Origin: Prevotella sp.
GTDB taxonomy: Bacteria; Bacteroidota; Bacteroidia; Bacteroidales; Bacteroidaceae
Assembly (NCBI GenBank): GCA_017474925.1
Contig: JAFVGN010000053.1
Location: forward strand, 1-43,066
Length of the DNA stretch: 43,066 nt
Direction: 5' to 3'
This document shows, piece after piece, positions 3,758 through 21,170 of the stretch (the stretch's first letter is position 1; every line of letters starts with the position of its first letter). Under the pieces are notes generated by a model, which was not told the origin of the DNA, did not search any database, and saw nothing but the letters and a program-made list of their open reading frames with translations. The translations under genes and the position numbers were made by a program.

Positions 3758-3784
3758 CATTAAAAATTACAATTTGCTGAAATC

Positions 3785-5220: not shown

Positions 5221-5239
5221 TGTAGTGTCACACACTACA
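5221..5239 (-). terminator. Hairpin at the 3' end of the minus-strand corrinoid operon
   Basis: TGTAGTGT (5221-5228) and ACACTACA (5232-5239) form an 8-bp stem with a 3-base loop that covers the stop codon of the CbiG-CobM gene. No T-run follows on the minus strand, so it may serve in 3'-end protection rather than termination. Confidence 0.35.
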
Positions 5240-7046
5240 ATGGTTCTGCGTTGCGGAACAAGTGTGCAAAATCCTTAGAATATAGTTCGGAGAGTCCCTT
5301 GCGGTTGTCTATGGCCTCGCCAACCACAATCATGGTGGTTAGCGTAAGGTTGTTTTCGTGGACAATCCGTGCCAAATCGTGTAATTGTCCTCGATAGATG
5401 CGCTGGTCGGACCATGTTAGATGATAACAGGCGGCAACGGGAGTTTCTGCAGGATATTCCTGTAGTAATTCGCGCTGTACGTCGTCGACGATAGCTGCCG
5501 AGAGAAATATGCACATGGTAGACTGGCTTCGGGCCAGCAGATGCAGTTGTTCTCTCTCGGGCATGGGGGTACGGCCTTCTCCACGTGTGAGGATTATGGT
5601 TTGGCAGCGACCGGGTATGGTGAATTGTGAACGTAGTTCGGCTGCTGCTGCGAGGAAACTGGAGATGCCAGGCGTGATGTGGTAGGACATTCCCTCTTGG
5701 TCGAAGAACGCCATCTGTTCTTGTATAGCTCCGAAGATACAGGGATCGCCTGTGTGAAGTCGGACGATGAAATGATTGAGGTCGTAGTGTTGTTTCATTA
5801 GTTGGCACTGCTGTTCGAGTGTCATGTCTGCGCTGCTTCGTACGACGGCTCCCGGTTTGTGGCATTCTGTCAGCGCCTTTGGTACCAGCGAGCCGGCATA
5901 TAGTATGAGGTCTGCACGCTCAAGCATTCTTCGTCCGCGTACAGAGACCAGATCAGGATCGCCAGGACCGGCACCAACTATCTCAATGTGGCCTTTCTTC
6001 AGTCTCAGGTTCTTGTAATCAATGGCAAGTGCCGCCGTCCAGTTCTTGCCTTTAATCTTTGGGACAATCAGTTTTCCGTGATTCGAGCCCAGTATGGCCG
6101 CTGCTTCGCAGACACTGGGGGTACCAACATGCTTGGCGACAGTCGTGCTGGGGTTGGGTACATCGACAGTTGCCAATTGTCCAGCCGTGAAGAATTCGAC
6201 CTTCTCTCCATACTCTATCTCCAGCATTTCCACGAAATCCTCGTCACGCTTGACGTCTATGGTACAATAGTTCCTGGCGCAAGGCAATATACCGTGGAGG
6301 GATAATGCATTGTCTATCTCGTCGTAGATGACCTCGTAGTCTTCAGGGTGATGGGACAGTCCAAAGCCTATGGTTCCCACCATTGGTACGAAGTGTAGCA
6401 CATGCATGTCTTCTGGGCAGGAGTATATGAAGGGTGAGACAATGATGAGCAACGTGTATTTCCCAGTGAAAGCATCGTTGATGTTGTTGATGACGGTGAC
6501 GTGTTCTGGCATGGTCTTTTCCAGATAGTCTGTACCCTCATCGCAAACATCCATCAGCAATGCGGTTGGCTTGCGGTTGACAAAGTCGAATATGCAATCG
6601 TTCATGTCTTCCTTGTCGCTGGCCAAAGGCCAGTTAAACCGCTCTTCAAGTGTATCCAGAGCCCAGAATCCGGCTAAGTCGCTTTGGGTGGTAATAATCT
6701 CGCGAGCCCCTATCATACTGGCTACTTGGTGAGTCAGTTCGTTTGCTCCGCCCAAATGTCCGCTCAATACGGAGATGGCGTTGAATCCCATACTGTCGAC
6801 GCACACTACTGCAGGGTCATCGTGCTTGTCCTTGACGTATGGAGCTATGGTACGAACACAAATGCCCATGGCGCCGATGAAGATAAAAGCGTCGTAATCA
6901 TTCCATCGTTTTCCTACGTCCTTCCGACTGACTATCTCAGCCACAGGTTTCTCTTTGTCATTGCGATTCGTGCCATGCACATTATTCATAATCATGAAGG
7001 CAATATGTTTACCCTCTTCGCTGATTTGTATGATTGCTATTCTCAT
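5235..7046 (-). CDS. cbiG-cobM: Fused cobalt-precorrin-5A hydrolase (CbiG) and precorrin-4 C11-methyltransferase (CobM/CbiF)
   Basis: 603 residues, cytoplasmic. Residues 1-~205 match CbiG_N ('IFIGAMGICVRTIAPYVKDK', 'VLSGHLGGANELT'). ~220-345 match the CbiG C-terminal region ('VGTPSVCEAAAIL'), and 352-603 are an SAM-dependent tetrapyrrole methyltransferase of the CobM/CbiF type ('IEIVGAGPGDPDLVSVRGRR', 'LHTGDPCIFGAIQEQM', 'ITPGISSFLAAAAEL'). CbiF methylates C11 of cobalt-precorrin-4 and CbiG opens the resulting lactone, so the fusion joins consecutive steps of the anaerobic B12 pathway. It is the last gene of the minus-strand operon, 13 bp after the HAD gene. The ATG at 7046 starts directly with CbiG sequence. 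The presence of CbiG, which the aerobic route lacks, indicates the anaerobic (early cobalt insertion) route. Confidence 0.9.
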   Translation of the reverse strand: MRIAIIQISEEGKHIAFMIMNNVHGTNRNDKEKPVAEIVSRKDVGKRWNDYDAFIFIGAMGICVRTIAPYVKDKHDDPAVVCVDSMGFNAISVLSGHLGGANELTHQVASMIGAREIITTQSDLAGFWALDTLEERFNWPLASDKEDMNDCIFDFVNRKPTALLMDVCDEGTDYLEKTMPEHVTVINNINDAFTGKYTLLIIVSPFIYSCPEDMHVLHFVPMVGTIGFGLSHHPEDYEVIYDEIDNALSLHGILPCARNYCTIDVKRDEDFVEMLEIEYGEKVEFFTAGQLATVDVPNPSTTVAKHVGTPSVCEAAAILGSNHGKLIVPKIKGKNWTAALAIDYKNLRLKKGHIEIVGAGPGDPDLVSVRGRRMLERADLILYAGSLVPKALTECHKPGAVVRSSADMTLEQQCQLMKQHYDLNHFIVRLHTGDPCIFGAIQEQMAFFDQEGMSYHITPGISSFLAAAAELRSQFTIPGRCQTIILTRGEGRTPMPEREQLHLLARSQSTMCIFLSAAIVDDVQRELLQEYPAETPVAACYHLTWSDQRIYRGQLHDLARIVHENNLTLTTMIVVGEAIDNRKGLSELYSKDFAHLFRNAEPL

Positions 7047-7059
7047 ATCGACTTTAGAC

Positions 7060-7854
7060 TTATATCAGTTTGAAATATTTCAGAGCATTCATGATGCCAT
7101 CGTCGTCTACGGAGGTTGTCACATAGTCTGCCTGTTGTTTCAGCGAGTCAAGGGCGTTGCCCATTGCAATGCCAATACCTGCCGCCAGTACCATCGAACT
7201 GTCGTTCCCACCATCCCCGAAGGCCATTGTGTACTGGGCGTCAAGCCCTTCGTGGGTAGCCATTGTGAGCATTCCCTCGCCCTTGTCGGCTCCCCTGACG
7301 GTGATATCTGTAAAGGCAGGGTGCCAACGTCCGGAATTACAACAAGGTATCTTTTCCATCAGTTCGAGTTCGTAGTGCTCGTCAAAGAAAGGAGTCAGCT
7401 GAAAGATGCGCTGTTTGAGCACTTCGTCAATAGGCTTAGCTTGGTTAAGGTTCTTGACGGCAAGCTCTACGCGGAAAATTCTGTCCACTTCGCCCTTGGG
7501 GTCTAAGACGGCTACGTCGCTCTCTCCCACAACGATTAGTCCGTAGTTCCGTTCTTGTGCATCACGAACCACCTGTCGTACAGCCTCCAGAGGGATATCC
7601 TTACAACTCACTACTTTTTTACCGATAAAACACAACGCTCCGTTGATGGTCACATAACCATCAATCAGGTGCTCGATGGCTCCCAGGTTGGTGATGATGA
7701 TTGGCGGTCGTCCTGTGGCAATGAATACCTTATGTCCATTAGCCTTGGCCTGAGTAAGTGCCAGGATGGTGGAAGCAGGTATTTCATGAGTCCTGAAACT
7801 TACCAAGGTTCCATCTATGTCGAAAAACAATGCGTATTTATTCATACTTTTCAT
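7060..7854 (-). CDS. Cof-type HAD-superfamily phosphatase inside the corrinoid operon
   Basis: 264 residues. HAD motif I is 'FFDIDGTLVSF' near the N-terminus, motif II lies in 'KVFIATGRP', and motifs III/IV are around 'DKGEGM' and 'MAFGDGGNDSSMVLAAGIGI'. The large alpha/beta cap between ~85 and ~185 makes it the Cof/YbiV (IIB) type, whose members dephosphorylate sugar phosphates, FMN or similar small molecules. Two starts are possible: the ATG at 7854, 2 bp after the cobL stop, or that at 7845 ('MNKYALFF'), which matches family N-termini better. Its place between cobL and cbiG-cobM with almost no spacing says it is co-transcribed with B12 synthesis. A role as a phosphatase of the pathway, for example on alpha-ribazole phosphate, is conceivable but unproven; it may simply have been captured by the operon. 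Confidence 0.85.
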   Translation of the reverse strand: MKSMNKYALFFDIDGTLVSFRTHEIPASTILALTQAKANGHKVFIATGRPPIIITNLGAIEHLIDGYVTINGALCFIGKKVVSCKDIPLEAVRQVVRDAQERNYGLIVVGESDVAVLDPKGEVDRIFRVELAVKNLNQAKPIDEVLKQRIFQLTPFFDEHYELELMEKIPCCNSGRWHPAFTDITVRGADKGEGMLTMATHEGLDAQYTMAFGDGGNDSSMVLAAGIGIAMGNALDSLKQQADYVTTSVDDDGIMNALKYFKLI

Positions 7855-7856
7855 GA

Positions 7857-9128
7857 TTACCCATGATAATGGGCCTTAAGAATCTCAATAGGGTTGTAGT
7901 CGTTGATTCGAATGCACAGAGGAGGATCTTGCTGAAGGTTCAGTTCTGTGCAGGTTTCGTCCCACAGCTTACGGCTGTTTACTGGTACGTGAGGTGAACT
8001 GACACTGTTGAAGACGATGACACCGCCGGAATCCATCACACTCAGCACCTTAGCCACAATTTCTTTCAAATGACCACCATGCCCCCCAATGAACACAGCA
8101 TCAGGGCAGGGGAGGGTGGTGATGTCTTTTTCGAGGAAGTCGCCCATGTACACGTCAATGCCCGGGGCACCGAAACGGCGCATGTTTTCGTGGATGATGG
8201 ACTCGCATTCAGGACGTATTTCAAAGCTGCAGATGTGTAGGTGTGGAAACAGTAGTCGGGCTTCGATAGATACGCTGCCAGTACAGAATCCAATATCCCA
8301 GAATGTGTTTCTTCGGGAAAGTTCGAGGGCTTGTAGCGTCAGCAGTCTGATGGGCATTTTGGTAATCATTTTCTCACGACCGTTGAGCAGTGAGAAGTCT
8401 GCGTCAGGTATGCCGAATGGCCTTGCATCATAGGTGGGGTCATTGGCCGAGGACGCAACGGGAACAGATGGCCCTTTTCTTTTTAGAATAATGCAGTTCG
8501 GGTTGCAGAAGTCTTGATGTGAGGCATCTTCAAGTGAGCATGTGGTGACACGTTCCAACGAGGGGTTGCCCAAATGTTCGCCAACAGACATCGTATAACG
8601 GGAATAGCCATAGTCGAGCATATGCTGTGCAATGGCAGATGGCGTGTGTTCGCGATCGGTTAGTACACCAATCTTCCCTGCTCGTTCAATCAGCGCCTTG
8701 TCAAACTCAGGCCAGGGACGTCCCGTCAACGAGACAATCCGCATGTCGTGATAAGGTATCAGCAACCTGTGGGCAAGTAGTTGCAGTGAGTTAAACGAAG
8801 GATAGACCACGATGTCGGCTTGGGGCATCTTTCGTCGGATGGTGTTGGCAAAGCCATAGAAAAGAGGGTCACCGCTGGCGAAGACCACAATCGAGTCGCT
8901 ATCTGCTACTTGATAGTTCTCAAAGACTGCGTCCAAAGGTGCAGTAATGTCAATCCATCGTGCATCGTCAGGTAACAGCGGAGCCACTATCTCATGATGG
9001 CGCTTGCCGCCAGAGAATACCCTTCCCCCCTTGATGATTTCCAATACTTCGGGTGGAAAAAACGGATGGGGATGGTCTGATATGCCAATGACAATGAATC
9101 TGTTCATAACTTTCAGCATTTGATGCAT
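7857..9128 (-). CDS. cobL: Precorrin-6B C5,15-methyltransferase, decarboxylating (CobL = CbiE-CbiT)
   Basis: 423 residues with two domains. Residues 8-~215 are a CbiE-type tetrapyrrole methyltransferase ('VVFASGDPLFYGFANTIRRK', 'SVGEHLGNPSLERV'). ~245-423 are a CbiT-type class I SAM methyltransferase with glycine motif 'WDIGFCTGSVSIEA' and 'PDAVFIGGHGGHLKEI'. Together they methylate C5 and C15 and remove the C12 acetate carboxyl. The gene overlaps its neighbours' spacing closely: 1 bp after cobJ-cobH and 2 bp before the HAD gene. The frame allows ATG at 9128, but MNRFIVIG at 9107 is the family-like start and may be the true one. Confidence 0.9.
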   Translation of the reverse strand: MHQMLKVMNRFIVIGISDHPHPFFPPEVLEIIKGGRVFSGGKRHHEIVAPLLPDDARWIDITAPLDAVFENYQVADSDSIVVFASGDPLFYGFANTIRRKMPQADIVVYPSFNSLQLLAHRLLIPYHDMRIVSLTGRPWPEFDKALIERAGKIGVLTDREHTPSAIAQHMLDYGYSRYTMSVGEHLGNPSLERVTTCSLEDASHQDFCNPNCIILKRKGPSVPVASSANDPTYDARPFGIPDADFSLLNGREKMITKMPIRLLTLQALELSRRNTFWDIGFCTGSVSIEARLLFPHLHICSFEIRPECESIIHENMRRFGAPGIDVYMGDFLEKDITTLPCPDAVFIGGHGGHLKEIVAKVLSVMDSGGVIVFNSVSSPHVPVNSRKLWDETCTELNLQQDPPLCIRINDYNPIEILKAHYHG

Positions 9129-9129
9129 T

Positions 9130-10530
9130 CTACAAATCCCTACCGGGTTTCAGCTGTGCTGCATCGTCGAAGGTGAGAATGGCGTTACAAAGAGTAGCTG
9201 CAAGGTTGCTACCCCCCTTTCTGCCCTCAACGATAATCTTTGGAATGTCACGGAAAGGCTTCACCATATGTTTCGATTCACATACGTGTACAAAACCTAC
9301 GGGGGCAGCAATGATGCCTGCCGGATAAGCTTTGCCCTTACGGATGAGTTCGCATAGCTCCATGAGTGCCGTCGGAGCATTGCCGAAAGCAAAGAGCGCA
9401 TTGGGGTGTTCCTCTACAGCCAGTCGGATGCCAGCCTGGGTGCGGGTTATGTTTTCCGTGCTTGCCATTTCAGTCACACGAGGGTCGCTGAGGTAGCACT
9501 TGGCCTCGATGCCGAGTCGCTGCAAGGCTCCTTTACGGATTCCGCTGGTCACCATCGTTACGTCACTGATGATGGTCTTCAGCGTTCCATTCCTTACCTT
9601 ATTATATAATATCTCGACAGCTCCGTCATCAGTATGTAGGATATTCTCCATATCGAAGTCTGCGGTAGTATGAATGGCATGAAGCAGAGCCCATTTGTGG
9701 TCAAGGGGAATGTCTTTCTGCTTTAGTTCTTTCTCAATCGTTCGGAATGACTCCATCATGATGTTCTGCCCAATCTTCACCCCTTCAGGTTCGCTGTTGC
9801 GGTAATAGCCGCGAGGAGTTATCATCCTGCCGTCAGCAATGTACGATTGTGAGTTGCCCACAATGATGACGGTGAACATATCCACCTCTTCCGGATCAAA
9901 CTGTCCGAGGGTGGTTAACTCTACTTCCTGTCCTTTGCGTCCAGCCTGACGGACATAGCCTACGGGAGTGTCGGCTGAACGTTCCTGTAGGAAGATTTCC
10001 TGCAACCGGTAGAGTTGCCAGTATCGTCCGTGCGACTTCGGATTGTATATGGCTGTGACAAAGTCGCCCACAGCAGCAGCCCGAATACGTCGCTCAATCA
10101 GCTCCCAAGGTGTCATCAGGTCCGAGAGTGAGATGAGGCATGTGTCGTGACCAATAGGGGCACCGAGCAGCGAGGCAGCCTTCTGAAAGGCGGAAATGCC
10201 GGGCAGCACCTCTATTGCGATGTCGGAACACTGCTCTCGTTTCATCTCGTACACGAGCGGTGCCATACCGTAAATACCAGCGTCGCCAGACGAAATAACC
10301 ACGACGGTCTTGCCCTGCTGGGCTAGTCGGAAAGCCTCCTCGGCCCGCTCGCGTTCGTGCTTCATGCCAGTGTCAATACACTCGCAGTCCTGCTTCAGAT
10401 AGGGAGTGACGAACTGAAAGTAATATTTGTACCCGATTACCACATCAGCCTCGCCGATTACATGAAGCGCAGCGTGAGTGATGTCTTCCTTGTTGCCAGG
10501 ACCGATGCCTGCTATGATGATTTTTCCCAT
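9130..10530 (-). CDS. cobJ-cobH: Fused precorrin-3B C17-methyltransferase (CobJ/CbiH) and precorrin-8X methylmutase (CobH/CbiC)
   Basis: 466 residues. Residues 1-~245 are CobJ/CbiH ('IIIAGIGPGNKEDITHAALH', 'VVISSGDAGIYGMAPLVYEM', 'VLPGISAFQKAASLLGAPIG', 'YNPKSHGR'), which methylates C17 and contracts the ring. ~255-466 are CobH/CbiC with the catalytic-type motif 'HAIHTTADFDM' (candidate catalytic His287), 'SDVTMVTSGIRKGAL' and 'GIIAAPVGFVHVCESK'; it moves the C11 methyl to C12. The fused steps are not adjacent in the pathway. It lies 21 bp after the DUF2149-like gene and 1 bp before cobL, so it is translated from the same message. Confidence 0.9.
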   Translation of the reverse strand: MGKIIIAGIGPGNKEDITHAALHVIGEADVVIGYKYYFQFVTPYLKQDCECIDTGMKHERERAEEAFRLAQQGKTVVVISSGDAGIYGMAPLVYEMKREQCSDIAIEVLPGISAFQKAASLLGAPIGHDTCLISLSDLMTPWELIERRIRAAAVGDFVTAIYNPKSHGRYWQLYRLQEIFLQERSADTPVGYVRQAGRKGQEVELTTLGQFDPEEVDMFTVIIVGNSQSYIADGRMITPRGYYRNSEPEGVKIGQNIMMESFRTIEKELKQKDIPLDHKWALLHAIHTTADFDMENILHTDDGAVEILYNKVRNGTLKTIISDVTMVTSGIRKGALQRLGIEAKCYLSDPRVTEMASTENITRTQAGIRLAVEEHPNALFAFGNAPTALMELCELIRKGKAYPAGIIAAPVGFVHVCESKHMVKPFRDIPKIIVEGRKGGSNLAATLCNAILTFDDAAQLKPGRDL

Positions 10531-10551
10531 ATCGATTTTTGTCTGCTTCTG

Positions 10552-10887
10552 CTATTCCGGAACGTAGATAATCTGTCCGTTTTCCAACTGATAAGCCGTA
10601 CCGAGTCGTTTCCCCTGTTGTCCGTTAAGGCCTTCCGATTTGCCAGAGGCTTTGTAGGTGTTGATCTCCTTCCCCTCCTTGGTGATGATTTCCATGTTTT
10701 CCTTGCCAGGATTCTTGACAACGGTAAAATCCTCCTGCCCGAAAATCTCCGTCATGTTCATGTGTATTACCATCGCCACCATCAATGATACGGCAAAGAC
10801 CATAGCCACGTCGAAAAGGTTGACCACCACACTCAGTGGATCCCCGTCATCCTCCTGTAGGATATTCAGATTACGTTTCCTTCTCAT
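10552..10887 (-). CDS. DUF2149-like membrane protein (HmuV-like)
   Basis: 111 residues. The N-terminal 'RRKRNLNILQEDDGDPLSVV' and the single membrane segment 'VNLFDVAMVFAVSLMVAMVI' (about 22-42) match my memory of DUF2149 proteins. The C-terminal part is soluble and ends 'ENGQIIYVPE'. The fold plan (short N-tail, one membrane helix, periplasmic domain) recalls ExbD/TolR, the partner of ExbB/TolQ. DUF2149 genes usually sit beside a MotA/TolQ/ExbB gene and a CobN-like gene, as here, and correspond to hmuV of the Porphyromonas haem locus. It overlaps the upstream ExbB-like gene by 17 bp, which indicates translational coupling. Role inferred: part of an ion-driven motor complex. Confidence 0.75.
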   Translation of the reverse strand: MRRKRNLNILQEDDGDPLSVVVNLFDVAMVFAVSLMVAMVIHMNMTEIFGQEDFTVVKNPGKENMEIITKEGKEINTYKASGKSEGLNGQQGKRLGTAYQLENGQIIYVPE

Positions 10888-11476
10888 TGCTCAGCTGATA
10901 GATTCGTGAAACATAGTCGAGACGGTTTACATCTTTCGCGTACCAGCGCGACTTGAGTTGTTGGGTGTACAGTCCTACAGCACTAATAACAAGTCCAACG
11001 ACAGTAGCAGAGAAAACCACCTGCATGTTATAGGCCATCCCCGATATGTCGCCAGTGGACAGTCCGACCAATGCCGGCGACATGGAAATCAGCGTCCCGA
11101 TGAGTCCCAGTACTGGGCCCAGTTTTGTCAGTAGTCTTGCCAGGTTGACATCCTTTGCAGCCTCCGTCTCGTAGTGGGTGATGATATAGTCAGCGTAAGC
11201 CTCGCTGCCAGGATGTGCCAGCAGGTCGGCCAGATATTTTGTCAATAGCGAGTCTGGCTGTTTGGGCAACAAGCTGCGCAAATGGCTGATGCCGTCGGGT
11301 TGCAGCTCCTTGATAGCCGTGTCGAGCAGCATGTCGTTCCTGCGACGTGTCATAAACTGACTGTATGTTCCCCCGAGCATCATCAATGCTCGGAAGAAAA
11401 AGAAGATGAGCAGGATGATATCAGGTATCAGTAGCGAGTTGGCAATCCCGAAGAGGGCTTTTGATATAAACTCCAT
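10871..11476 (-). CDS. MotA/TolQ/ExbB-family proton channel protein (HmuU-like)
   Basis: 201 residues with one membrane segment near the N-terminus ('LLIPDIILLIFFFFRALMML'), a cytoplasmic stretch, and a C-terminal pair of membrane helices carrying the family signature 'LLTKLGPVLGLIGTLISMSP' followed by 'MAYNMQVVFSATVVGLVISA'. The family forms ion channels that energise outer-membrane or flagellar machines. It is 6 bp after the multi-pass membrane protein gene and overlaps the DUF2149-like gene by 17 bp. It matches hmuU of the Bacteroidales haem-uptake locus in type and neighbours. I infer that it forms a motor with the DUF2149-like protein and possibly powers the CobN-like protein or its TonB receptor. 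Confidence 0.85.
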   Translation of the reverse strand: MEFISKALFGIANSLLIPDIILLIFFFFRALMMLGGTYSQFMTRRRNDMLLDTAIKELQPDGISHLRSLLPKQPDSLLTKYLADLLAHPGSEAYADYIITHYETEAAKDVNLARLLTKLGPVLGLIGTLISMSPALVGLSTGDISGMAYNMQVVFSATVVGLVISAVGLYTQQLKSRWYAKDVNRLDYVSRIYQLSNEKET

Positions 11477-11482
11477 ATCGTT

Positions 11483-12145
11483 TTATCTATTAAGTTTCCA
11501 TTTGAGGCGATGAACAGTCAATCCTACTATGAAGAGTGCTAGAAAAAAACCAAATGATGTCATGAGTGACACCCAGTCCAGCGGTTCCTCTTTAACGACG
11601 TAGACCATCTGGCCGTGTGTCGTGGATATTAATCCGAGCATACAGACAAGAACGGTGAGCTGCAGATGCAGTTCCACGCGACTTGACTTGTCAGGGAGGA
11701 GCCATCGGATACCCTGGGCCATCAGCGGAAGCAGGACGATAATGGCAGCAGCGAATGTCAGCCCCACCATTCCAAAATCTTTTCCTGTAGTCAAAAAGAT
11801 GACCTGTGTCAACAGGTAAAACACCACGGGGAACATTAGTAAACTGGCATAAGCATCAAGTAGTTTCATGGATTTCCCGTTTAACCACAAGAGAGAGAAA
11901 GCCAGTCCTATAGCCGACTCTATGGTAATAAGTATAGCCAGCGTCTGCAACGTATTCGTGTCTTGAAGATAGTCAGTCAGCTGTGTCTTCGACTGTAATA
12001 TGACCCAGCGAAGACTCCACCATGCAAAGCCACCCAGAAGCAGACCATACAGCGCCTGTTGCCACCATCGCCATAAACTGAGTTTTGTCACACAGTTCAG
12101 CACAATCAAGAGTATCAGTAAATGGATGACCAGTTCCATGAGCAT
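11483..12145 (-). CDS. Multi-pass inner-membrane protein (HmuT-like), first gene of the minus-strand operon
   Basis: 220 residues from the ATG at 12145, with about six hydrophobic helices, for example 'ELVIHLLILLIVLNCV', 'LMFPVVFYLLTQVIFL', 'GLTFAAAIIVLLPLMA' and 'FGFFLALFIVGLTVH'. No catalytic motif is visible. The frame is open up to 12253, but the extra N-terminal residues would be non-membrane sequence read from the promoter and riboswitch region. A -7 box at 12164-12171 places the transcript start near 12158, so I choose 12145 (12139 is also possible). By position, next to ExbB-like, DUF2149-like and CobN-like genes, it corresponds to hmuT, whose role is unknown. It could be the membrane platform or permease of the complex. 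Confidence 0.7.
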   Translation of the reverse strand: MLMELVIHLLILLIVLNCVTKLSLWRWWQQALYGLLLGGFAWWSLRWVILQSKTQLTDYLQDTNTLQTLAILITIESAIGLAFSLLWLNGKSMKLLDAYASLLMFPVVFYLLTQVIFLTTGKDFGMVGLTFAAAIIVLLPLMAQGIRWLLPDKSSRVELHLQLTVLVCMLGLISTTHGQMVYVVKEEPLDWVSLMTSFGFFLALFIVGLTVHRLKWKLNR

Positions 12146-12163
12146 CTTTTTTGTTGACGACTG

Positions 12164-12171
12164 CAAAGGTA
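12164..12171 (-). promoter_or_regulatory. -7 box of the minus-strand corrinoid operon
   Basis: The plus strand reads caaaggta, so the minus strand reads TACCTTTG. It lies 18 bases before the ATG at 12145 and leaves room for only a very short leader, so no riboswitch fits on this arm. Confidence 0.55.
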
Positions 12172-12191
12172 CGACATTTTTCCTAAAAAAG

Positions 12192-12222
12192 TTGCATGTT
12201 TTTAAAATATTGTGTACCTTTG
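12192..12222 (+). promoter_or_regulatory. Promoter of the riboswitch-controlled plus-strand operon
   Basis: TTG at 12192-12194, 20 bp, TACCTTTG at 12215-12222. It is back-to-back with the minus-strand -7 box about 45 bp away, so regulation of both arms by one bound protein is possible. Confidence 0.6.
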
Positions 12223-12226
12223 CAAC

Positions 12227-12440
12227 CGAATTGGTGATGCATGGGTGTTTCATCTTTGCATGAAAAGGGAATCAGGTGCAAGTCCTGAGCAGTACCCGCT
12301 ACTGTCATCCTCATTATGGAAAGTCTAGTCAGAGCCACTGAACCACTTTGGGTATGAAAAATGTGTTTGGGAAGGCAGACTTTTCGGGGAGAGCCAGGAA
12401 ACCTGCCATTCAATTACGAGGCGTATGCTCCGGGAATAGG
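12227..12440 (+). ncRNA. Cobalamin riboswitch upstream of the BtuB-like receptor
   Basis: Two conserved blocks are present in order and at normal spacing: 'aggtgcaagtcctgagcagt' continuing into 'acccgctactgt' (about 12269-12305), and the B12 box 'agccaggaaacctgcc' at 12392-12407, close to the consensus agcCAGgagACCtGCC. Several paired segments lie between. The transcript from the promoter at 12192-12222 would begin just before it. There is no T-run before the ATG at 12470; instead a small hairpin GTTAT/ATAAC (12454-12465) lies right before the start. I infer control of translation: bound cobalamin would switch off synthesis of the uptake operon. Boundaries are approximate. Confidence 0.92.
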
Positions 12441-12469
12441 GCAGAGCTGTTAAGTTATTCATAACGGAA

Positions 12470-14617: not shown

Positions 14618-14643
14618 ACATTTTATATTAAACATTGATCAAT

Positions 14644-15117
14644 ATGAAGAAACTTAGAATCTATCTCATGCTCTTGGTTGCTTTGCTGGGTACGAGTGCT
14701 TATGCTGACAGCGTTAAGTACATTGTATTCAACGCCGGGGGCGAGGAAACCGTCATCGCTCTGGAAGAGATGCCGGTGATGACCATCAATGATGGGGTCC
14801 TGAAGGTGGTGGTACGAGGTGATGAACGACTGTCAGCATCTCTTTCCGATGGACTGTCATATCGCTTTTCCGAAACTGTCCCCACCGGCATTCAGGAAGT
14901 TTTTAACGATGAGGCCCCCCGACTCGAGCAGGGTCACGTCTATATTGCCAATGCCAAGAAAGGCGACGTAGTACGTGTCTTTACCGCTGACGGTAAGTTC
15001 GTGACCTCTCAGCGCGTCAGTGACGACGGCACCGCTGACGTCGATCTGACGGTGTTAAACAAAGGCCTCTACATCGTGAGATCTGCAAGAACAAGTATTA
15101 AAGTCATTAACAAATAA
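14644..15117 (+). CDS. Small secreted protein with type IX-like C-terminal domain, in the B12 uptake operon
   Basis: 157 residues from the ATG at 14644; an upstream TTG at 14635 is in frame but adds only MIN. A signal peptide (MKKLRIYLMLLVALLGTSAYA) is followed by an ~60-residue beta-rich part ('YIVFNAGGEETVIALEEMPV') and, from about residue 95, a domain 'GHVYIANAKKGDVVRVFTAD' ... 'LTVLNKGLYIVRSARTSIKV' that fits the Por-secretion/T9SS tail pattern. The protein is essentially a short N-domain plus a sorting tail. It occupies the place where haem loci encode the haemophore HmuY, 26 bp after the receptor. A ligand-capture or receptor-accessory role is inferred only from context. Confidence 0.75.
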   Translation: MKKLRIYLMLLVALLGTSAYADSVKYIVFNAGGEETVIALEEMPVMTINDGVLKVVVRGDERLSASLSDGLSYRFSETVPTGIQEVFNDEAPRLEQGHVYIANAKKGDVVRVFTADGKFVTSQRVSDDGTADVDLTVLNKGLYIVRSARTSIKVINK

Positions 15118-15129
15118 AACATAAACATC

Positions 15130-16458
15130 ATGAAAAGATTTATACTCACTATCGTTGCAACCATGACGCTGTGCCTCGGTGTCAGCGCACAGACCTATAA
15201 TATGGTGATAACCAAAACCGACGGAACGACACTGCCTATTCCGGCTGATGAGATAAGGAACGTCGAATTTGTCCTGAACGAAGAGCCTGTCGTCTATCCC
15301 CCCCATCACTTCGACCTTACTGTGACTGTAGGCAAGCAGGGTGGTATGGGCCGCGACGTCACCACCATCATGCAGAGCCGTGGCACGCTGGCAAGCGGTG
15401 CGGTGGTAGACTTCAAGAATGCCGGTGCGGAAATCAATGCCGACTACACCATGGAAACCGTCTTCAAGGGCAAGTACTACTATCAGGTTCCTGTATCGGG
15501 CGACCGTTTCGTCAAGCTGCAGTTCGTCAACAATCGGATGCAGGTTGTCCAGGCCCAGCGTTTCATGGAAAATACCTTTAAACCCCGTCAGTACTGCCAC
15601 GCATGGACCGACGACAACACGTTGGTCATCATGGCTTCCAACGGCGACGGAAACGCCATCGTGTGGACCAAGCTCAATGCTTCCGACATGCGTATCATTG
15701 CTGAGGGAACGCTCAATCTCAGTGTTGCCCCCGGTTGGGAGACCTTCACCACCAGTGGCATCCTGAGCTATCGCAAGAGCGACAACAAGCTGTTCTACTT
15801 CTACTATAATAAGAAAGGCTCTGGACGCACGGCTACCAAGGAAGACAAATTCCACGTAGCAGTCATCAATCCCCAGTCGATGGCTGTCGAACAGGACAAT
15901 CAGTGTCCTTTCGTTGCCGAGACAGCCGGTTCTGCCTATGGCGAACTGCTTCAGCAGACCACTTTTGCCGACGAAGCTGACAATCTTTATATTGCTGCTT
16001 TCAGCGACACTGCCATCGGTGAAGAGGGCAAGCTGCTTCGCATCAACAAAGGCGAGTATAATATCGACCCCAACTACAACGGCTTCCCCCAGAGCGACGG
16101 CAAACTGCTGACCACCCAGTATCTGGGTAATGGCAAGGTGTTCTGCTACTCCCGTCATGATGACAAGGCTCTTGGCACCGGCATTGACAGCTATGCCCAC
16201 TATTACAGTGTCGTGGACTTGCGCACCAACACCCGTACGCGCATGAGCTACGGCGGTTCGGTGATTCCTTATAGCAGCGGCCGCTTCTCGCAGCGCTCAG
16301 CCTACGACCCCTCAGACAAGAAGGTTTACTTTGGTGTGAACACGGAGAATGCGCAGCCTCAGGTCTACATCTACGACAGCACCACCGGTGCGGTGGCCAA
16401 GGGCGTCAGCGTGGCCGAAGGATACTATTTCGAGCAGATTCGCCTCTTGGAGGACTAA
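15130..16458 (+). CDS. Secreted beta-propeller-like protein, candidate corrinoid-capture partner of the receptor
   Basis: 442 residues: signal peptide 1-21 (MKRFILTIVATMTLCLGVSA, cleavage near AQ), with no lipobox cysteine. An N-terminal segment 'YNMVITKTDGTTLPIPADEI' is common in Bacteroidetes secreted proteins. From ~60 to the end there are repeated four-strand-like modules ('YYQVPVSGDRFVKLQFVNNR', 'LFYFYYNKKGSGRT', 'NLYIAAFSDTAIGEEGKLLR', 'KVYFGVNTENAQPQVYIYDS') that look like propeller blades, similar in style to DUF4374 proteins. Bacteroides uses surface propellers next to TonB receptors (BtuG with BtuB, XusB with XusA) to grasp ligand; the analogy here is by context and shape, not by demonstrated homology. 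It starts 12 bp after the previous gene and is under the same riboswitch. Confidence 0.7.
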   Translation: MKRFILTIVATMTLCLGVSAQTYNMVITKTDGTTLPIPADEIRNVEFVLNEEPVVYPPHHFDLTVTVGKQGGMGRDVTTIMQSRGTLASGAVVDFKNAGAEINADYTMETVFKGKYYYQVPVSGDRFVKLQFVNNRMQVVQAQRFMENTFKPRQYCHAWTDDNTLVIMASNGDGNAIVWTKLNASDMRIIAEGTLNLSVAPGWETFTTSGILSYRKSDNKLFYFYYNKKGSGRTATKEDKFHVAVINPQSMAVEQDNQCPFVAETAGSAYGELLQQTTFADEADNLYIAAFSDTAIGEEGKLLRINKGEYNIDPNYNGFPQSDGKLLTTQYLGNGKVFCYSRHDDKALGTGIDSYAHYYSVVDLRTNTRTRMSYGGSVIPYSSGRFSQRSAYDPSDKKVYFGVNTENAQPQVYIYDSTTGAVAKGVSVAEGYYFEQIRLLED

Positions 16459-16486
16459 TTGAGTAATCACAAGCGTGTGATTAGAC

Positions 16487-17314
16487 ATGTGTATTATTAT
16501 ATTAAGTTTGCTTGTGTTCCTGTGTGCGACTTCTTGCCGTGCACAGGAAACCTTTTCTAAGCAGGGCCTGTTGATGGTGCATTTTGGTACCACCTACGAC
16601 GACACCCGTCAGAAGACCATTGATGCCATCAATGAGAAAGCACACGAGGCCTTCCCCCAGTTGACGCTGCGTGAAGCCTACACCTCGCATATCGTCATGA
16701 AGCGTCTGGCCAAGCGTGGCATCAGTAAGGACACACCCGTCGACGCCTTGCTGAAAATGCACGGTGAAGGAGTCCGGACGGTGGCCGTCCAGCCGTCCTA
16801 TGTCATTGACGGTATTGAGATGGAGCGTCTGCGTCAGGATGTGGAAAAGGTCCGTCCTTTCTTTGACAGCATCTGGGTGAGTACGCCCTTGCTCTATAGT
16901 GTGGAAGACGCTGAGAAAGTCTGTCAAGTGTTGGTTAATCGCCATCCTGCTGATTCTAGGAAGCATGAGCATGTGCTTTTCATTGGTCATGGAACAGAAG
17001 GTCCTGCGACGGCACTCTACAGTCAGCTCGACTACATGTTGCGTGCAAACGGTCACGCCAACTATCATGTCTCGACCATCGAGGGCTATCCCACCCAGGA
17101 GACAACAGTCGCTCAAATCAAGGCCATGAAAGGCCGGAAGGTAACACTCGTCCCCTTGCTGTTCGTGGCAGGCGACCATGCCAACAACGACATTGCCGTA
17201 GAATGGAAGGAAGCACTTGAGAAACAAGGCTTCACCGTTGAAGTGAGCCTCGAAGGACTGGGCGAGGTTCCTGAGATACAAGACCTGTATATCAAGAAGA
17301 TAAAACAAAGATAA
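16487..17314 (+). CDS. cbiK: Exported sirohydrochlorin cobaltochelatase (CbiK)
   Basis: 275 residues. The chelatase body matches CbiK: 'LLMVHFGTTYDDTRQKTIDA', 'PSYVIDGIEM', 'LFIGHGTEGPATALYSQLDY' (His168), 'STIEGYPT' (Glu199) and 'LLFVAGDHANNDI' (His231), the metal-binding trio expected of the family. It inserts cobalt (in vitro also iron) into sirohydrochlorin. Unusually it begins with a hydrophobic signal 'MCIIILSLLVFLCATSCRAQ'; Cys17 after A-T-S could be a lipobox, so the enzyme is probably a periplasmic lipoprotein or soluble periplasmic protein. Exported CbiK is known from Desulfovibrio. The stop TAA overlaps the ATG of the CobN-like gene (shared A at 17314), a sign of translational coupling. 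Confidence 0.9.
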   Translation: MCIIILSLLVFLCATSCRAQETFSKQGLLMVHFGTTYDDTRQKTIDAINEKAHEAFPQLTLREAYTSHIVMKRLAKRGISKDTPVDALLKMHGEGVRTVAVQPSYVIDGIEMERLRQDVEKVRPFFDSIWVSTPLLYSVEDAEKVCQVLVNRHPADSRKHEHVLFIGHGTEGPATALYSQLDYMLRANGHANYHVSTIEGYPTQETTVAQIKAMKGRKVTLVPLLFVAGDHANNDIAVEWKEALEKQGFTVEVSLEGLGEVPEIQDLYIKKIKQR

Positions 17315-20300
17315 TGAACCATCGGAAGATTCTGACCATCGTTGTTTCCATAGCTATATTGGCGGTTGCCGGATTTGCCGTCTGTCGCCAATATATGCTT
17401 CCTACCCGTATCATTGTTGTCAATGCCCTGAAGACGCAGCAGGCTGACATCGTTCTGTGCAATGACCATCCCCGCATCAAGGTGGACTGTGTCGATGCCG
17501 GAGAGATGGGCAGCCTCGACGGCTATGATGCCGTCATCTTCTACGCCCGCCGCCTTTTCCTCACACCGGAACAGGAGGCCGAGGTCAGACGTGTGGCAGC
17601 CGAGGGCATCCCCGTCTTCACCAAGACGCTGCGCAGCAACGATTTCGTCGAGAACCACAACCTCAGCGCGGAGCAGATAGCGACGCTGCAGGAATACTTC
17701 GGCAACGAGAACCGCCAGAACTTCCGCAACGGTCTCCGGTACCTGCGCCACATCGCCACGCCGCAGCGCTGGGGCGACCAGACGTTCGGGAAGCCTGTCG
17801 AAGTGCTGAAGGACATGTTCTACCACCGCGAGTACGGGAAGTATTTCAAGACCGCCGATGAACTGACGCAATATCTGAAGGAGCGCCGTCTCTACCACGA
17901 GGGCGGTCAGCGCCTTGCCCTTGTCTCCGGCATCACATTTCCCATGGAGGGCAATCGCGAGCATGTGGATACGCTCATCACGATGCTCACCGGACGCGGC
18001 TTCAACGTCTATCCCATGACCTGTTCGGGCAAGAAGCGCGAGAAAATGCTCCGCCGGCTGAAGCCCGACGGCGTGGTCTATATGCCGATGGGACGTATCG
18101 GCAACGACACGCTTGTCCGGTGGCTTCAGGACGAGAACATCGCGCTGTTCTGCCCCTTCCCGTTCTCACAGACCCATGAGGAGTGGATGGACAAGTCGGT
18201 TCCGATGACCAGCGGCTCGAAGAACGCCCGCATAGTCATCCCCGAGATTGACGGCGCCACGGCTCCCTACTGCATAGCCACCCAGAACGCCACCGCGGAA
18301 GGCTATTTCGTCCATACGGCCGAGGTGGAGCGCTGCGAGATGCTGGTGGAACATATCTGCCGCAGCATGTCACTGCGCACCAAGGCGAACAGCGAGAAGC
18401 GCATCGCCATCGGCTATTTCAAGCGGCCCGGCAAGGATGCCCTGCTGGCGAGTGGCATGGAAGTGATTCCTTCGCTGTACAATCTGTTGAAGCGGTTACA
18501 GCAGGAAGGCTATCGTGTCGACGGCCTGCCGGACTCGCCCGACGCCTTCGCCAAAGCCATCAGGACCGAGGGGCTCGTGCTGGGGTCCTATGCCCAGGGT
18601 GCCCAGCAGGAATATATGTCAAAAGGCCATCCGCTCTGGATTGGCAGGACGCAATACGAGCAGTGGGCCCGTGAGGTCCTCACCGAAGAACAGTACCGCG
18701 AAGTCGTCAGCCGTTATGGCGACGCTCCGGGGCAGTTGCTGGCCCGTGGCGACAGCATCGCCGTGGCCTGTGTGCGCTATGGCAACGTGCTGCTCTTTCC
18801 CCAGCCCCGTCCGGCCATAGGCGACGACGACTTCAAGATTGTCCACGGCGTCGACATGCCGCCGCCTCACAGCTATCTGGCACCTTATTTATATATGCAG
18901 AAGGGCTTCCGGGCCGATGCCGTCATCCATTTCGGCACGCATGGCAACCTGGAGTTCACGCCGGGCCGCGATGCCGGAATGCGGCAGCAGGACTGGAGCC
19001 TGCAGCTCATTGGTCCCACGCCGCATTTCTACTACTACACGACCAGCAACATCGGCGAGGCCATCATTGCCAAGCGGCGCTCGCATGCCGTGCTGCTGAC
19101 CTACCTGACGCCGCCTTATGCCGAAAGCGGCATGCGCAGGAAGTACAATGCCCTGCACGATGATGTCCACCGGGCCCTGGCTGCCGGTGGGGCCACGGCC
19201 GGCGCCTCGCTGAGGCAGCGCATCGTCCGTGAGGGCCTGCACCGTGCACTGGGCATTGACAGTGCGCTCAACAAGGCGCTCACCCACGACGAGCTGGAAC
19301 GCATCGACAGTCATCTGGAGGAACTGATGAACGAGAAGATGCAGGGAGCCTACTACACCCTGGGGCAGCCCTACACCGAAGAGCAGCTGGACCAGACGGC
19401 GCGCGCCATGAACGACGACGCCTCCCAGTGGCCCCGCATCAGACAGCTGCTGCGGGCATCGACACAGGCCGAAATCGACAACATGATCCGCGCGCTCAAC
19501 GGCGGGACGGTAGCCCCGGCACCCGGCGGCGACCCGATACTCAACGACAATGTCTTGCCCACGGGCAGGAACATGTTCAGCATCAACCCCGACAACACGC
19601 CTGACCCCCAGGCATGGGAAGACGGCAGGCGGCTGGCGGAGCAGACCATTGCCCGCTACAGGAAGGAGCACGGCGAGTACCCCCGCAAGGTGAGCTATAC
19701 CTTCTGGGCGGGGGAATTCATCGCCACGGGCGGCGCCACCGTCGCGCAGGCACTGTGGATGCTGGGCGTCGAGCCGGAACGTGACAGCCAGGGGCGCATC
19801 GGGGCTCTTCGCCTGGTGCCTGCCGCCGAACTGGGACGTCCGCGCATCAACGTGACGGTGCAGGTCAGCGGCCAGTTGCGCGACATTGCCGACTCGCGCC
19901 TGCAGCTCATCACCGAGGCAGTCCGGATGGCTTCCGCCGAGGAGCACGACTCCAACTTCGTGCGCGAAGGCACGCTGGCCCAGGAGAAGGAGCTCATCGA
20001 CCAGGGCATTCCGCCGCAGCGCGCCCGCGAGCTCTCCGCCCTGCGCGTCTTCGGACCCGTGAACGGCGGCTACAGCACGGGCATGATGGACTACATCGAG
20101 CGCAGCGGGGCCTGGGACGACAAGAGCCAGCTGGTGGACGCCTATCTGAACAACATGTGTGCCGCCTACGGCGACGAGGCCCACTGGGGGACGCCCCAGC
20201 GCGAACTGTTCGTTGCGGCGCTCCAGGGCACCGACGTCTCCGTCCAGCCCCGGCAGAGCAACACCTGGGGCCCTGTCTCGCTCGACCACGTCTACGAGTT

Positions 20301-21033
20301 TACCGGCGGGCTGTCCATGACCGTCAAGGCACTCACGGGCAAGGAGCCCGACGCGCTGATGGCCGACTACCGCAACGCCAGGAACCGGCGCATGCAGGGC
20401 ATGAAGGAAGCCGTCGACGTGGAGGTGCGCACCACCTTGCTCAATCCCAACTTCGTACGCGAGCGGATGAAGGGCGGCGAGGGGACGGCCCAGATGTTTG
20501 GCGAGACGTTCCGCAACATCTTCGGGTGGAGCGTGACCAAGGCATCGGTGCTCGACGCGAACCTCTACGACGACCTCTATCGCATGTACGTCACCGACGA
20601 GCAGCATCTGGGCGTCCGCGAATTCTTCGTGCAGAAGAATCCCGCAGCCTACCAGGCCATGACGGCTACCATGCTCGAGAGCGCCCGCAAGGGCTACTGG
20701 AAACCTGCCGGTGCGCAGCTGAAGGCCGTGGCGGCCCTGCATGCCGAACTGACCGCCGTGAGCGGCCCGGCATGTACCGATTTCGTCTGCAACAACGCGC
20801 AGCTTCAGCGCTTCGTCGCCAGCCAGCTCGCGCCTGCTGAGGCCGGGAACTACAACCGGCTGATGGCCGGCACCAGGAACCTGTCGTCGTCCGGCGGAGT
20901 GATTCTTGAGAAGAGCGGGGTAGGGCAGCAGCCCGCCGCGCAGCAGGACACCGGCCTCCTCTTGACCGTCGCGGCCGTCGTCGTGCTGTTCCTCGCCGTC
21001 ATCATCTACCGCCTGCGCAAGTCAGCGCGGTGA
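17314..21033 (+). CDS. cobN: Membrane-anchored CobN-family chelatase (HmuS-like)
   Basis: 1239 residues, the usual length for CobN/BchH. Residues 6-24 are a membrane anchor ('LTIVVSIAILAVAGFAV') and 1213-1232 a second one ('GLLLTVAAVVVLFLAVIIY') followed by RLRKSAR. The body carries the family core: 'VIHFGTHGNLEFTPGRDAGM' (His539-Met556 region), 'PPHSYLAPYLYMQKGFRADA', 'KVSYTFWAGEFIATGGATVA' and 'VFGPVNGGYSTGMMDYIERS'. True aerobic cobaltochelatase needs CobS/CobT, which are absent here, and the other genes indicate the anaerobic pathway, where CbiK inserts cobalt. With both ends anchored and positive charges on the C-terminal tail, the large domain is probably periplasmic. The gene matches hmuS of haem loci, reported to extract metal from haem. 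I infer metal insertion into or removal from an imported tetrapyrrole. The DNA is markedly more GC-rich than upstream genes. Confidence 0.85.
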   Translation: MNHRKILTIVVSIAILAVAGFAVCRQYMLPTRIIVVNALKTQQADIVLCNDHPRIKVDCVDAGEMGSLDGYDAVIFYARRLFLTPEQEAEVRRVAAEGIPVFTKTLRSNDFVENHNLSAEQIATLQEYFGNENRQNFRNGLRYLRHIATPQRWGDQTFGKPVEVLKDMFYHREYGKYFKTADELTQYLKERRLYHEGGQRLALVSGITFPMEGNREHVDTLITMLTGRGFNVYPMTCSGKKREKMLRRLKPDGVVYMPMGRIGNDTLVRWLQDENIALFCPFPFSQTHEEWMDKSVPMTSGSKNARIVIPEIDGATAPYCIATQNATAEGYFVHTAEVERCEMLVEHICRSMSLRTKANSEKRIAIGYFKRPGKDALLASGMEVIPSLYNLLKRLQQEGYRVDGLPDSPDAFAKAIRTEGLVLGSYAQGAQQEYMSKGHPLWIGRTQYEQWAREVLTEEQYREVVSRYGDAPGQLLARGDSIAVACVRYGNVLLFPQPRPAIGDDDFKIVHGVDMPPPHSYLAPYLYMQKGFRADAVIHFGTHGNLEFTPGRDAGMRQQDWSLQLIGPTPHFYYYTTSNIGEAIIAKRRSHAVLLTYLTPPYAESGMRRKYNALHDDVHRALAAGGATAGASLRQRIVREGLHRALGIDSALNKALTHDELERIDSHLEELMNEKMQGAYYTLGQPYTEEQLDQTARAMNDDASQWPRIRQLLRASTQAEIDNMIRALNGGTVAPAPGGDPILNDNVLPTGRNMFSINPDNTPDPQAWEDGRRLAEQTIARYRKEHGEYPRKVSYTFWAGEFIATGGATVAQALWMLGVEPERDSQGRIGALRLVPAAELGRPRINVTVQVSGQLRDIADSRLQLITEAVRMASAEEHDSNFVREGTLAQEKELIDQGIPPQRARELSALRVFGPVNGGYSTGMMDYIERSGAWDDKSQLVDAYLNNMCAAYGDEAHWGTPQRELFVAALQGTDVSVQPRQSNTWGPVSLDHVYEFTGGLSMTVKALTGKEPDALMADYRNARNRRMQGMKEAVDVEVRTTLLNPNFVRERMKGGEGTAQMFGETFRNIFGWSVTKASVLDANLYDDLYRMYVTDEQHLGVREFFVQKNPAAYQAMTATMLESARKGYWKPAGAQLKAVAALHAELTAVSGPACTDFVCNNAQLQRFVASQLAPAEAGNYNRLMAGTRNLSSSGGVILEKSGVGQQPAAQQDTGLLLTVAAVVVLFLAVIIYRLRKSAR

Positions 21034-21078: not shown

Positions 21079-21157
21079 ACAAATTATAAGTTTAACATCT
21101 AACTGATTAACAACTTTTTTGTGCGCAGAATTCGTACGTAATGTCGGAAATAATATG

Positions 21158-21165
21158 TATCTTTG
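21158..21165 (+). promoter_or_regulatory. -7 box (TATCTTTG) directly before cobB
   Basis: TATCTTTG ends 5 bases before the ATG at 21171, so transcription would start at or next to the start codon. No clear -33 box is seen. Confidence 0.5.
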
Positions 21166-21170
21166 CACGC

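Follow-up and report, generated by a model that had tools for sequence, protein, structure and literature searches.

Among the closest described relatives of the locus analysed here is the hmu system of Bacteroides thetaiotaomicron, whose CobN-family protein HmuS (PDB 9D26) belongs, as set out in PMC12583661, to a family defined by a methionine-rich insertion and by Met79 and His254; these two residues are the haem ligands, while His538 and His1209 form the active-site pair. The BtuS family and its link with metalloporphyrin salvage date to Rodionov 2003 (as cited in PMC6460266), and riboswitch-led hmu-like operons have already been reported for B. fragilis (PMC10100974), so that this arrangement as such has a precedent. 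Further HmuS homologues are found in other clades and likely have other functions (PMC13227078). Here we describe a variant of this system in a 43,066-nucleotide stretch of Prevotella sp. DNA (GCA_017474925.1, contig JAFVGN010000053.1, forward strand), which as a whole we call the window. A gene for BtuS lies on a plus arm behind a cobalamin riboswitch, together with a XusA-like receptor, a putative XusB-like propeller protein and a CbiK-type chelatase, and a divergent minus arm carries HmuT-, HmuU- and HmuV-like genes (T-U-V) and corrin-synthesis genes. This anatomy is well supported, and metal handling of an imported tetrapyrrole precursor is, judging from the sequences, its most likely role.

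Like the B. thetaiotaomicron system, the locus has a CobN-family protein with hydrophobic stretches at both ends, a TonB receptor, T-U-V and the catalytic histidine pair (PMC12583661). Unlike that system, it has no match to HmuY on either arm, the other five hmu gene types being there; its methionine-rich insertion is reduced or missing, its haem ligands are lost, and a B12 riboswitch, CbiK and corrin genes are added. The riboswitch-led, hmu-like BtuS1 operon of B. fragilis likewise holds an anchored CobN-like protein with a cobalamin riboswitch upfront (PMC6460266, PMC10100974), a likeness drawn from description and not from sequence; the accessible parts of those accounts describe neither CbiK nor a Xus-like pair. 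In the open-access literature we found no paper describing a HmuS-type protein that lacks the haem ligands and stands together with a Xus-like pair and an exported CbiK under a B12 riboswitch. The two arms are composed as follows.

12215-12424, plus strand: cobalamin riboswitch aptamer RF00174, 5' of the receptor gene (86.5 bits against a gathering score of 31.5; full length, 1-189)
12470-14617, plus strand: TonB-dependent receptor, XusA-like (PDB 9GBC chain A, 355 bits)
14644-15117, plus strand: small protein with a signal-like N-terminus (Por_Secre_tail 3e-4, under its cut-off); homologues adjoin the receptor in several relatives
15130-16458, plus strand: putative XusB-like propeller protein (profile match to XusB, 9HQE)
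16487-17314, plus strand: CbiK-type class II cobalt chelatase with a signal-like N-terminus (PF06180, 1e-75)
17314-21033, plus strand: BtuS, CobN/HmuS-family protein (Pfam CobN-Mg_chel, 7e-277)
21141-22454, plus strand: CbiA-like amidotransferase (CbiA and GATase_3 domains; named from length and order)
22442-23962, plus strand: CbiP-like amidotransferase (CbiA and GATase_3 domains; named from length and order)
11483-12139, minus strand: T, HmuT-like multi-pass membrane protein with six hydrophobic stretches (listed open reading frame, ORF, to 12253)
10871-11476, minus strand: U, HmuU-like MotA/TolQ/ExbB protein (PF01618, 2e-8)
10552-10887, minus strand: V, HmuV-like DUF2149 protein with a single hydrophobic stretch (PF09919, 7e-34)
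9130-10530, minus strand: CbiH-CbiC fusion (TIGR01466 332 bits, PF02570 4e-66)
7857-9128, minus strand: CbiE-CbiT fusion (TIGR02467 164.6 bits, TIGR02469 101.5 bits)
7060-7854, minus strand: Cof-type HAD hydrolase among the corrin genes (TIGR00099, 178 bits)
5235-7046, minus strand: CbiG-CbiF fusion (TIGR01465 330 bits, CbiG_N 9e-34)

With a CobN match at E 7e-277 and a riboswitch 55 bits over its gathering score, chance is not an issue for this locus. An earlier note, made from the letters alone, had placed here five gene types (receptor, CobN-like protein, membrane protein, ExbB-like channel and DUF2149 protein) and six corrin-synthesis genes. Pfam and hydropathy confirm all five types where they were placed, and the six corrin genes are CbiGF, CbiET and CbiHC on the minus arm and CbiK and the CbiA-like and CbiP-like genes on the plus arm. 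The membrane anchoring that it ascribed to the CobN-like protein also holds as judged by hydropathy only, with hydrophobic stretches at residues 6-24 and 1213-1231. No second CobN-family protein was found in the window's genome assembly, which is 64% complete.

The phylogeny places BtuS with HmuS. Its best match among solved chains is HmuS 9D26 (1071 bits), compared with 372 bits for ChlH and about 335 for CobN. We collected 64 proteins, of which 59 entered the larger tree, the fragments or near copies G191, G300, G225, L045 and G228 being omitted (G, L and C are our handles for genomes, loci and contigs). In this tree, which has long outgroup branches and unequal residue composition, proteins of the window type group together with support 100 within the HmuS/BtuS clade, and their group includes G424 beside L049. 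A tree of 28 proteins under a mixture model gives the same placement, and for these 28 a join to soluble CobN is rejected by the approximately unbiased (AU) test (p 4e-42, log-likelihood difference 127). The earlier note had asked for a comparison of this kind, and its CobN-like protein groups with HmuS/BtuS in both trees; grouping with soluble CobN is rejected by the AU test. Soluble CobN, which works with ChlI/ChlD or CobS/CobT, shares the Pfam family and His538 with BtuS but differs in being soluble, in having ATP-driven AAA+ partners and in forming a separate clade. By sequence, BtuS forms a branch of its own within the membrane-anchored HmuS/BtuS family.

The residues of this branch were counted in 17 clade sequences, including G424 and L049; G191 is left out of the counts, and the G017 fragment (654 residues) is in none of the trees or counts. 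At the key positions the window BtuS has Arg79, Arg80, Met259, Ala305, His539, His543, His992 and Glu995. Both haem ligands are missing from all 17 sequences: the position of HmuS Met79 is Arg in every one, that of His254 is Met in 14 and Val in three, and that of Gln299 is always Ala, Ser or Thr. Among 37 HmuS-group rows, Met79 is present in 33 and His254 in 36, and three rows have His in place of Met79. His506, His534, His538, the second catalytic histidine and its glutamate are kept in 17/17 of the clade, the catalytic site having been mapped via B. finegoldii HmuS (His538, His1105, Glu1108) onto HmuS His538/His1209/Glu1212. The region of the methionine-rich insertion spans 57 residues with 2 Met between anchors in the window and 57-113 residues with 1-5 Met across the clade, compared with 164-380 residues and 4-26 Met in the HmuS group. 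Just outside the clade, the nearest row (G437h) has Pro79 and Met254, and so has lost the ligands, yet it keeps a long insertion with 15 Met. Since the ligands are lost, the catalytic residues kept and the insertion reduced or missing, the branch looks like a haem dechelatase that has lost its haem site, and an arginine at the haem-ligand position would suit a ring with more carboxylates. Separately, a Bacteroides finegoldii record that is labelled as a plasmid (L210, NZ_OY725918.1) was seen to carry an hmu run including HmuY.

Searching proteins with BtuS turned up 15 named loci in records titled Prevotella, Prevotellaceae or, for L049, Bacteroidales, one title naming a reticulum sample; 13 are of the window type, L053 is HmuS-type and L049 is of a sister type. 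Together with G006, which came from another search, these give 14 carriers besides the window genome (G006, G009, G018, G032, G060-G066 and G068-G070), and neighbourhoods were examined in 33 of the 35 CobN-positive genomes, all but G308 and G036 (a 4.3 kb locus). Ten of the 14 carriers have, on a single strand, the order receptor, (small protein), propeller, CbiK, BtuS, (T) U, V, and CbiA and CbiP come after V or BtuS in five of the 14 within the stretch examined. In L051 the run continues through CbiHC, CbiET and CbiGF on the same strand, so that both arms of the window correspond to one run. The split over two divergent arms reported in the earlier note is therefore true of the window but local to it, T-U-V following BtuS on the same strand in 10/14 relatives. 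Other layouts also occur: in L044 and L045, BtuS-T-U-V stands about 5.8 kb away from CbiK, and in G061 a riboswitch-led run of receptor, propeller and CbiK is separate from BtuS, with T-U-V beside neither. We infer from gene order that these runs are operons. The locus represents a real and conserved variant of the HmuS/T-U-V system that is led by a B12 riboswitch; outside the window's genus, our sample shows it solely in records with Prevotella or Prevotellaceae in the title.

The riboswitch is a constant part of this variant. RF00174 heads the run in all 13 window-type cases for which upstream sequence was scanned (the window, L039, L040, L042, L043, L046, L047, L048, L050, L051, L052, G006 and G061), a count made without L044 and L045, both of which start within the receptor gene; the Rfam scan was made without L131. 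In L039 the riboswitch is cut at its 5' end and precedes two further receptors and a second CbiK. Eight HmuS-type loci scanned in the same way (L053, G043, G054, G012, G016, G001, G029 and G437s) have no riboswitch directly upstream; in G054 there is one about 18 kb upstream of the HmuS gene on the same strand, where it heads a run of receptors. Outside the HmuS/BtuS clade, G149s and G132s also bear riboswitches. The tie to a cobalamin riboswitch proposed at first thus holds, but for the plus arm: the element lies on the plus strand only, and by position the minus arm is not under its control. On the minus strand no riboswitch reaches the gathering threshold, sub-threshold matches not having been looked for. 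A consensus promoter pattern (TTTG, TANNTTTG) has no match between the arms, and a single match elsewhere in the window (355-386) roughly equals the chance expectation.

A cobalamin riboswitch upfront is what would be expected if the run were a corrinoid uptake module, in which receptor and propeller import cobamides or cobinamide, BtuS and CbiK bind or hand over the corrinoid without moving metal, and the corrin genes are merely co-regulated. For hmu-like operons led by a riboswitch, the 2023 B. thetaiotaomicron paper offers cobalamin metabolism as a guess (PMC10100974), and B12 import in Bacteroidota uses a TonB receptor and the lipoprotein BtuG (mentioned in PMC13142918). However, the receptor is XusA-like and distant from BtuB, and the catalytic residues of both BtuS and CbiK are retained. 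In addition, genes for a FecCD permease and a binding protein, the usual BtuC/BtuF types, adjoin corrin genes in G009 and G060, and the FecCD run of G009 is headed by a riboswitch, so inner-membrane corrinoid import is already served there. We consider this explanation rather unlikely, although it deserves to be kept in view.

The receptor had been called BtuB-like in the earlier note, and this did not stand. Against solved chains it scores 355 bits with 9GBC chain A and only about 45 with BtuB chains, and its score with the BtuB equivalog TIGR01779 is 101.9 bits against a cut-off of 599.7; these values rule out a BtuB-like receptor and identify a XusA-like one. The best NCBIfam match, the MxcH siderophore receptor, reaches 476 bits, under its cut-off of 925. 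9GBC is the XusAB complex, and XusABC imports foreign siderophores (PMC13142918). A profile built from nine homologues of the protein at 15130-16458 matches XusB (9HQE) at E 5e-7 over its 156 C-terminal positions only, and four of the nine, viewed by eye, have a lipoprotein start with an acid-rich stretch after the cysteine; we regard the protein as a putative relative of the XusB propeller. In contrast to XusABC (PMC13142918), no match to the PepSY reductase XusC was found among the genes of both arms, and chelatases stand in that place. As a separate observation, one genome without BtuS at this place (L141:9380-13926, G034:C31) has a window-type CbiK, a PepSY membrane protein and a receptor together.

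CbiK is the second metal-handling enzyme of the run. It is found as a strong match in all 14 other carriers, which were picked by BtuS, and a signal-like hydrophobic N-terminus is seen in 14/14 CbiK sequences including that of the window (by eye, and for the window also by hydropathy); this set was viewed without G061, and in L051 the signal lies after an over-long ORF start. A19-Q20 is conserved in 12/12, and the histidines of the GHG and AGDH motifs align with those of Salmonella CbiK, in which such residues have catalytic roles. The score with the NCBIfam equivalog NF047852 is 192.4 bits, under the cut-off of 400. From these features the window CbiK is probably exported. The CbiX model matched in 14/14 other carriers, and its matches are the CbiK proteins only; if cobalt is inserted into sirohydrochlorin at all in the carriers, every candidate seen for it bears a signal. 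The comparator G050, which has HemB, HemC, CobA, CbiL and CbiD, has a two-domain CbiX. Many genomes also have a second CbiK-like protein, and in the four that were read (G009, G060, G006 and the window genome, G000) it has a lipoprotein start, an acid-rich stretch after the cysteine and at least one adjoining TonB receptor. Such lipoproteins beside TonB receptors lie at L128:7731-8831, L131:9134-10279 and L126:3426-5006.

PDB 2XVX, which we take to be a CbiK-like protein of Desulfovibrio, and IhtB/FetB of P. gingivalis (9B86) belong with the window CbiK to the class II chelatase family and are likewise exported, while the CbiK of the window is tied to BtuS, a riboswitch and corrin enzymes. The exported homologues include the haem-binding FetB structure 9B86, and IhtB is thought to take iron from haem (PMC10913741). 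If the whole run worked in that way, BtuS would strip a metalloporphyrin whose cobalt or iron is the prize, with CbiK as a haem-binding or iron-handling protein. The branching of BtuS within the HmuS radiation, the import of ferric siderophores by XusAB (PMC13142918) and the grouping of receptor, PepSY protein and CbiK in G034 are consistent with this. The loss of both haem ligands in 17/17 sequences is not, nor are the B12 riboswitch in front and the sharing of the run with corrin enzymes, and we judge metal scavenging to be quite improbable.

The T-U-V genes accompany the chelatase throughout our sample. The listed ORF of T begins at 12253, inside the riboswitch, but the conserved start is at 12139 (M39 in 40/42 homologues). 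In U, G124, L125, G127, T128 and T158 are invariant in 51 homologues and L123 is present in 50/51; in V, Asp26 lies in the hydrophobic stretch in 50/50 homologues, and ExbD likewise carries an aspartate at such a place. In seven relatives (L039, L046, L050, L051, L052 and the G018 and G032 stretches; L050 and L052 are near copies) T and U are fused into one ORF of 351-376 residues, which hints that T belongs to the channel complex. Among 393 Bacteroidales genomes, the CobN family was found in 35 and DUF2149 in 38, both samples being taken as the same genomes from their equal numbers and handles. All 35 CobN-positive genomes have DUF2149, compared with 3/358 of the others, where the matches are weak or partial (Fisher p 6.5e-47, a value that ignores kinship). 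T or U, plus V, adjoin 51 of 55 HmuS/BtuS-type genes; the exceptions are L041, L043, L049, which lies at the start of a contig, and G424, whose U and V are on a different contig. The joint travel of the ExbB-like and DUF2149 genes with the CobN-like protein, which the earlier note had put forward as a check, is thus seen both in loci and in genomes, and with the trees above the note's reading has come through the two tests that it had named as able to refute it.

No ChlI/ChlD gene stands beside any of the 55 HmuS/BtuS-type loci (CobS/CobT were not searched as such), and a ChlI/ChlD partner is found only at G132s. That genome has both types: its separate HmuS has T-U-V, unlike its soluble CobN, which has ChlI, ChlD and CbiZ. 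The run in question (L171, G132:C2) comprises a riboswitch, a periplasmic binding protein, a soluble-type CobN, ChlI, ChlD and CbiZ, and would be a B12-controlled class I chelatase with an ATP motor.

We favour a link between T-U-V and the chelatase, with which the published receptor-powering role is still compatible. That role would make U and V an ExbB/ExbD pair which, with T as a permease, powers the TonB receptor and has no relation to the chelatase; it is compatible with any other reading of the locus, and its probability is appreciable, if somewhat short of an even one. HmuU and HmuV resemble ExbB and ExbD, and a survey found T-U-V without HmuS (PMC10100974), on which point it disagrees with our 393-genome sample. 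The invariant aspartate in the V helix also agrees with receptor powering. On the other side stand the fusion of T to U in seven relatives and the riboswitch-led receptor of G061, which has no adjoining T-U-V. TonB receptors are common across Bacteroidales, and yet DUF2149 is almost absent from those genomes that lack CobN (3 weak matches in 358).

Our best reading, to which we give a little less than an even probability, is riboswitch-controlled, periplasmic and perhaps proton-driven metal exchange on an imported tetrapyrrole precursor that feeds the corrin pathway; we infer its location, its substrate, the direction of metal movement and the coupling to T-U-V. The XusA/XusB-like pair would capture a carboxylate-rich, isobacteriochlorin-type precursor, such as sirohydrochlorin, sirohaem or a further methylated relative, and move it across the outer membrane. 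Membrane-anchored BtuS would then remove an unwanted metal (iron, zinc or nickel), and exported CbiK would insert cobalt. T-U-V, comprising the membrane protein, the ExbB-like channel and DUF2149 as an ExbD-like subunit, could give BtuS proton-motive energy, in parallel with the ATP-driven ChlI/ChlD or CobS/CobT of soluble chelatases, or could alternatively help the cobalt-loaded ring inward. CbiHC, CbiET, CbiGF, CbiJD, CbiA and CbiP would complete the corrin in the cytoplasm. The earlier note had proposed a metal machine working on an imported corrinoid or corrin precursor. Cobalt is very hard to remove from a corrin, and the known substrate of CbiK is sirohydrochlorin; because of this, a precursor is likelier than a finished corrinoid, for which metal removal is improbable, and metal movement itself is what we would propose rather than observe.

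The gene content of the carriers bears directly on this reading. HemB and CbiK were searched in 72 genomes, CobA and CbiL (TIGR01467) in 45 of the 72, HemC, CbiD and CbiX in 25, and a CbiL profile in 28. None of the 14 other carriers has HemB, HemC or CobA over cut-off, while 13 of them have CbiD (G064 is without it), so that early hem genes are absent and corrin genes present in 13/14; the window genome has HemB, HemC and CobA. The notable fact is the presence of corrin genes within hem-negative genomes. Corrin genes without the steps to precorrin-2 are also described for P. gingivalis (PMC6461909). Our hem-negative relatives resemble in this the tetrapyrrole precursor salvagers of Shelton et al., which likewise keep corrin genes without early genes; the known cases belong mostly to the Firmicutes, where 5-aminolaevulinate was shown to be the precursor salvaged, and the accessible part of that work mentions no operon devoted to import and metal loading (PMC6461909). 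How bacteria with corrin genes and no hem genes obtain and load a ring is the question for which this gene run supplies concrete candidate parts: a capture pair, two probably exported metal-handling enzymes, a complex of the proton-channel type and a B12 riboswitch. It also bears on the function of HmuT, HmuU and HmuV, whose genes accompany the chelatase throughout the sampled order and two of which, T and U, are fused in seven relatives.

CbiL was found in four of the 14 other carriers (G006, G063, G064 and G069). A poor model as the cause of the missing CbiL was considered and rejected: a profile from its own group gives 372-434 bits for its five source proteins, as it must by construction, and at most 39 for others, and the independent TIGR01467 gives 147-165 bits for the same five proteins and at most 69 elsewhere. 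Ten carriers (G018, G009, G032, G060, G061, G062, G065, G066, G068 and G070) have CbiH/CbiF-type genes and CbiD without recognisable CbiL, HemB, HemC or CobA. With no CbiL, plain sirohydrochlorin would be unable to enter the pathway of these ten by known chemistry. Since most carriers are without CbiL, a more specific version can be proposed, in which the imported ring is already C20-methylated (of the factor III type), BtuS strips the wrong metal, exported CbiK loads cobalt outside the cytoplasm and T-U-V serves as the proton-driven equivalent of the AAA+ motor of class I chelatases. We think this full version improbable; if true, B12 synthesis would include a proton-powered step in the periplasm at which the metal of a foreign B12 precursor is edited. 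Cobalt insertion into exogenously acquired cobalamin has been speculated upon for Chlorobaculum (cited in PMC8620254).

The window genome differs from its relatives in this respect. It is 64% complete and has HemB twice, HemC twice and CobA once. Contig C35 carries a class III aminotransferase type, HemB, HemD, HemA-HemC and HemE. Another run (L124:5487-13320, G000:C50) holds a sulfite reductase, HemA, a HemC-CobA-HemD fusion, HemB and a class III aminotransferase (HemL by position), and appears to be sirohaem-type. When these contigs were tested for contamination, composition correlated with that of the window at r 0.88 for C35 and r 0.63 for C50, and the two HemB are 85% alike; we provisionally take these hem genes as real. 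Contigs G000:C20 and G000:C39 share 5,111 identical bases in opposite orientation, an assembly redundancy. With two hem sets, ring scavenging is not forced in this genome; it is indicated for the hem-negative relatives and not for the window species. The idea that scavenging and synthesis are encoded as one system fits those relatives; the window genome need not scavenge the ring.

Several further points, besides the hem genes of the window genome, weigh against metal exchange on an imported precursor. CbiL was not found in 10/14 other carriers, and a completeness figure is at hand for only four of these 14 (90-99%). HemB is absent in 29 of 31 same-genus genomes without the module, and because of this its absence is the norm of the genus and no mark of carriers. 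Seven relatives (G015, G020, G022, G025, G033, G034 and G035), which are 79-94% complete, have corrin genes while neither HemB nor a CobN-family protein was found; CbiD, tested in four of them, is present in all four. This suggests that BtuS is not required for feeding the corrin pathway. The sister BtuS at L049/G067 has the same residue changes, but hem genes are present there and CbiD and CbiK are missing, and scanning 20 kb of the sister G424 revealed no riboswitch. For the periplasmic CbiK of Desulfovibrio, a role unrelated to B12 has been suggested. T-U-V does not adjoin BtuS in L043 and L041, and in L043 none lies in the 23.6 kb examined. Finally, in the published view HmuU and HmuV energise the outer-membrane receptor, and the cblaster survey in the same paper finds T-U-V without HmuS in many genomes (PMC10100974).

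Two other parts of the window may be mentioned. BspA-type leucine-rich-repeat proteins adjoin the corrin arm (451-5092). At the other side, 29835-42686 encodes a histidine kinase, a response regulator, an MFS transporter and a non-ribosomal peptide synthetase of 3022 residues, with three adenylation domains, two condensation domains and, at its end, a domain of the reductase type.

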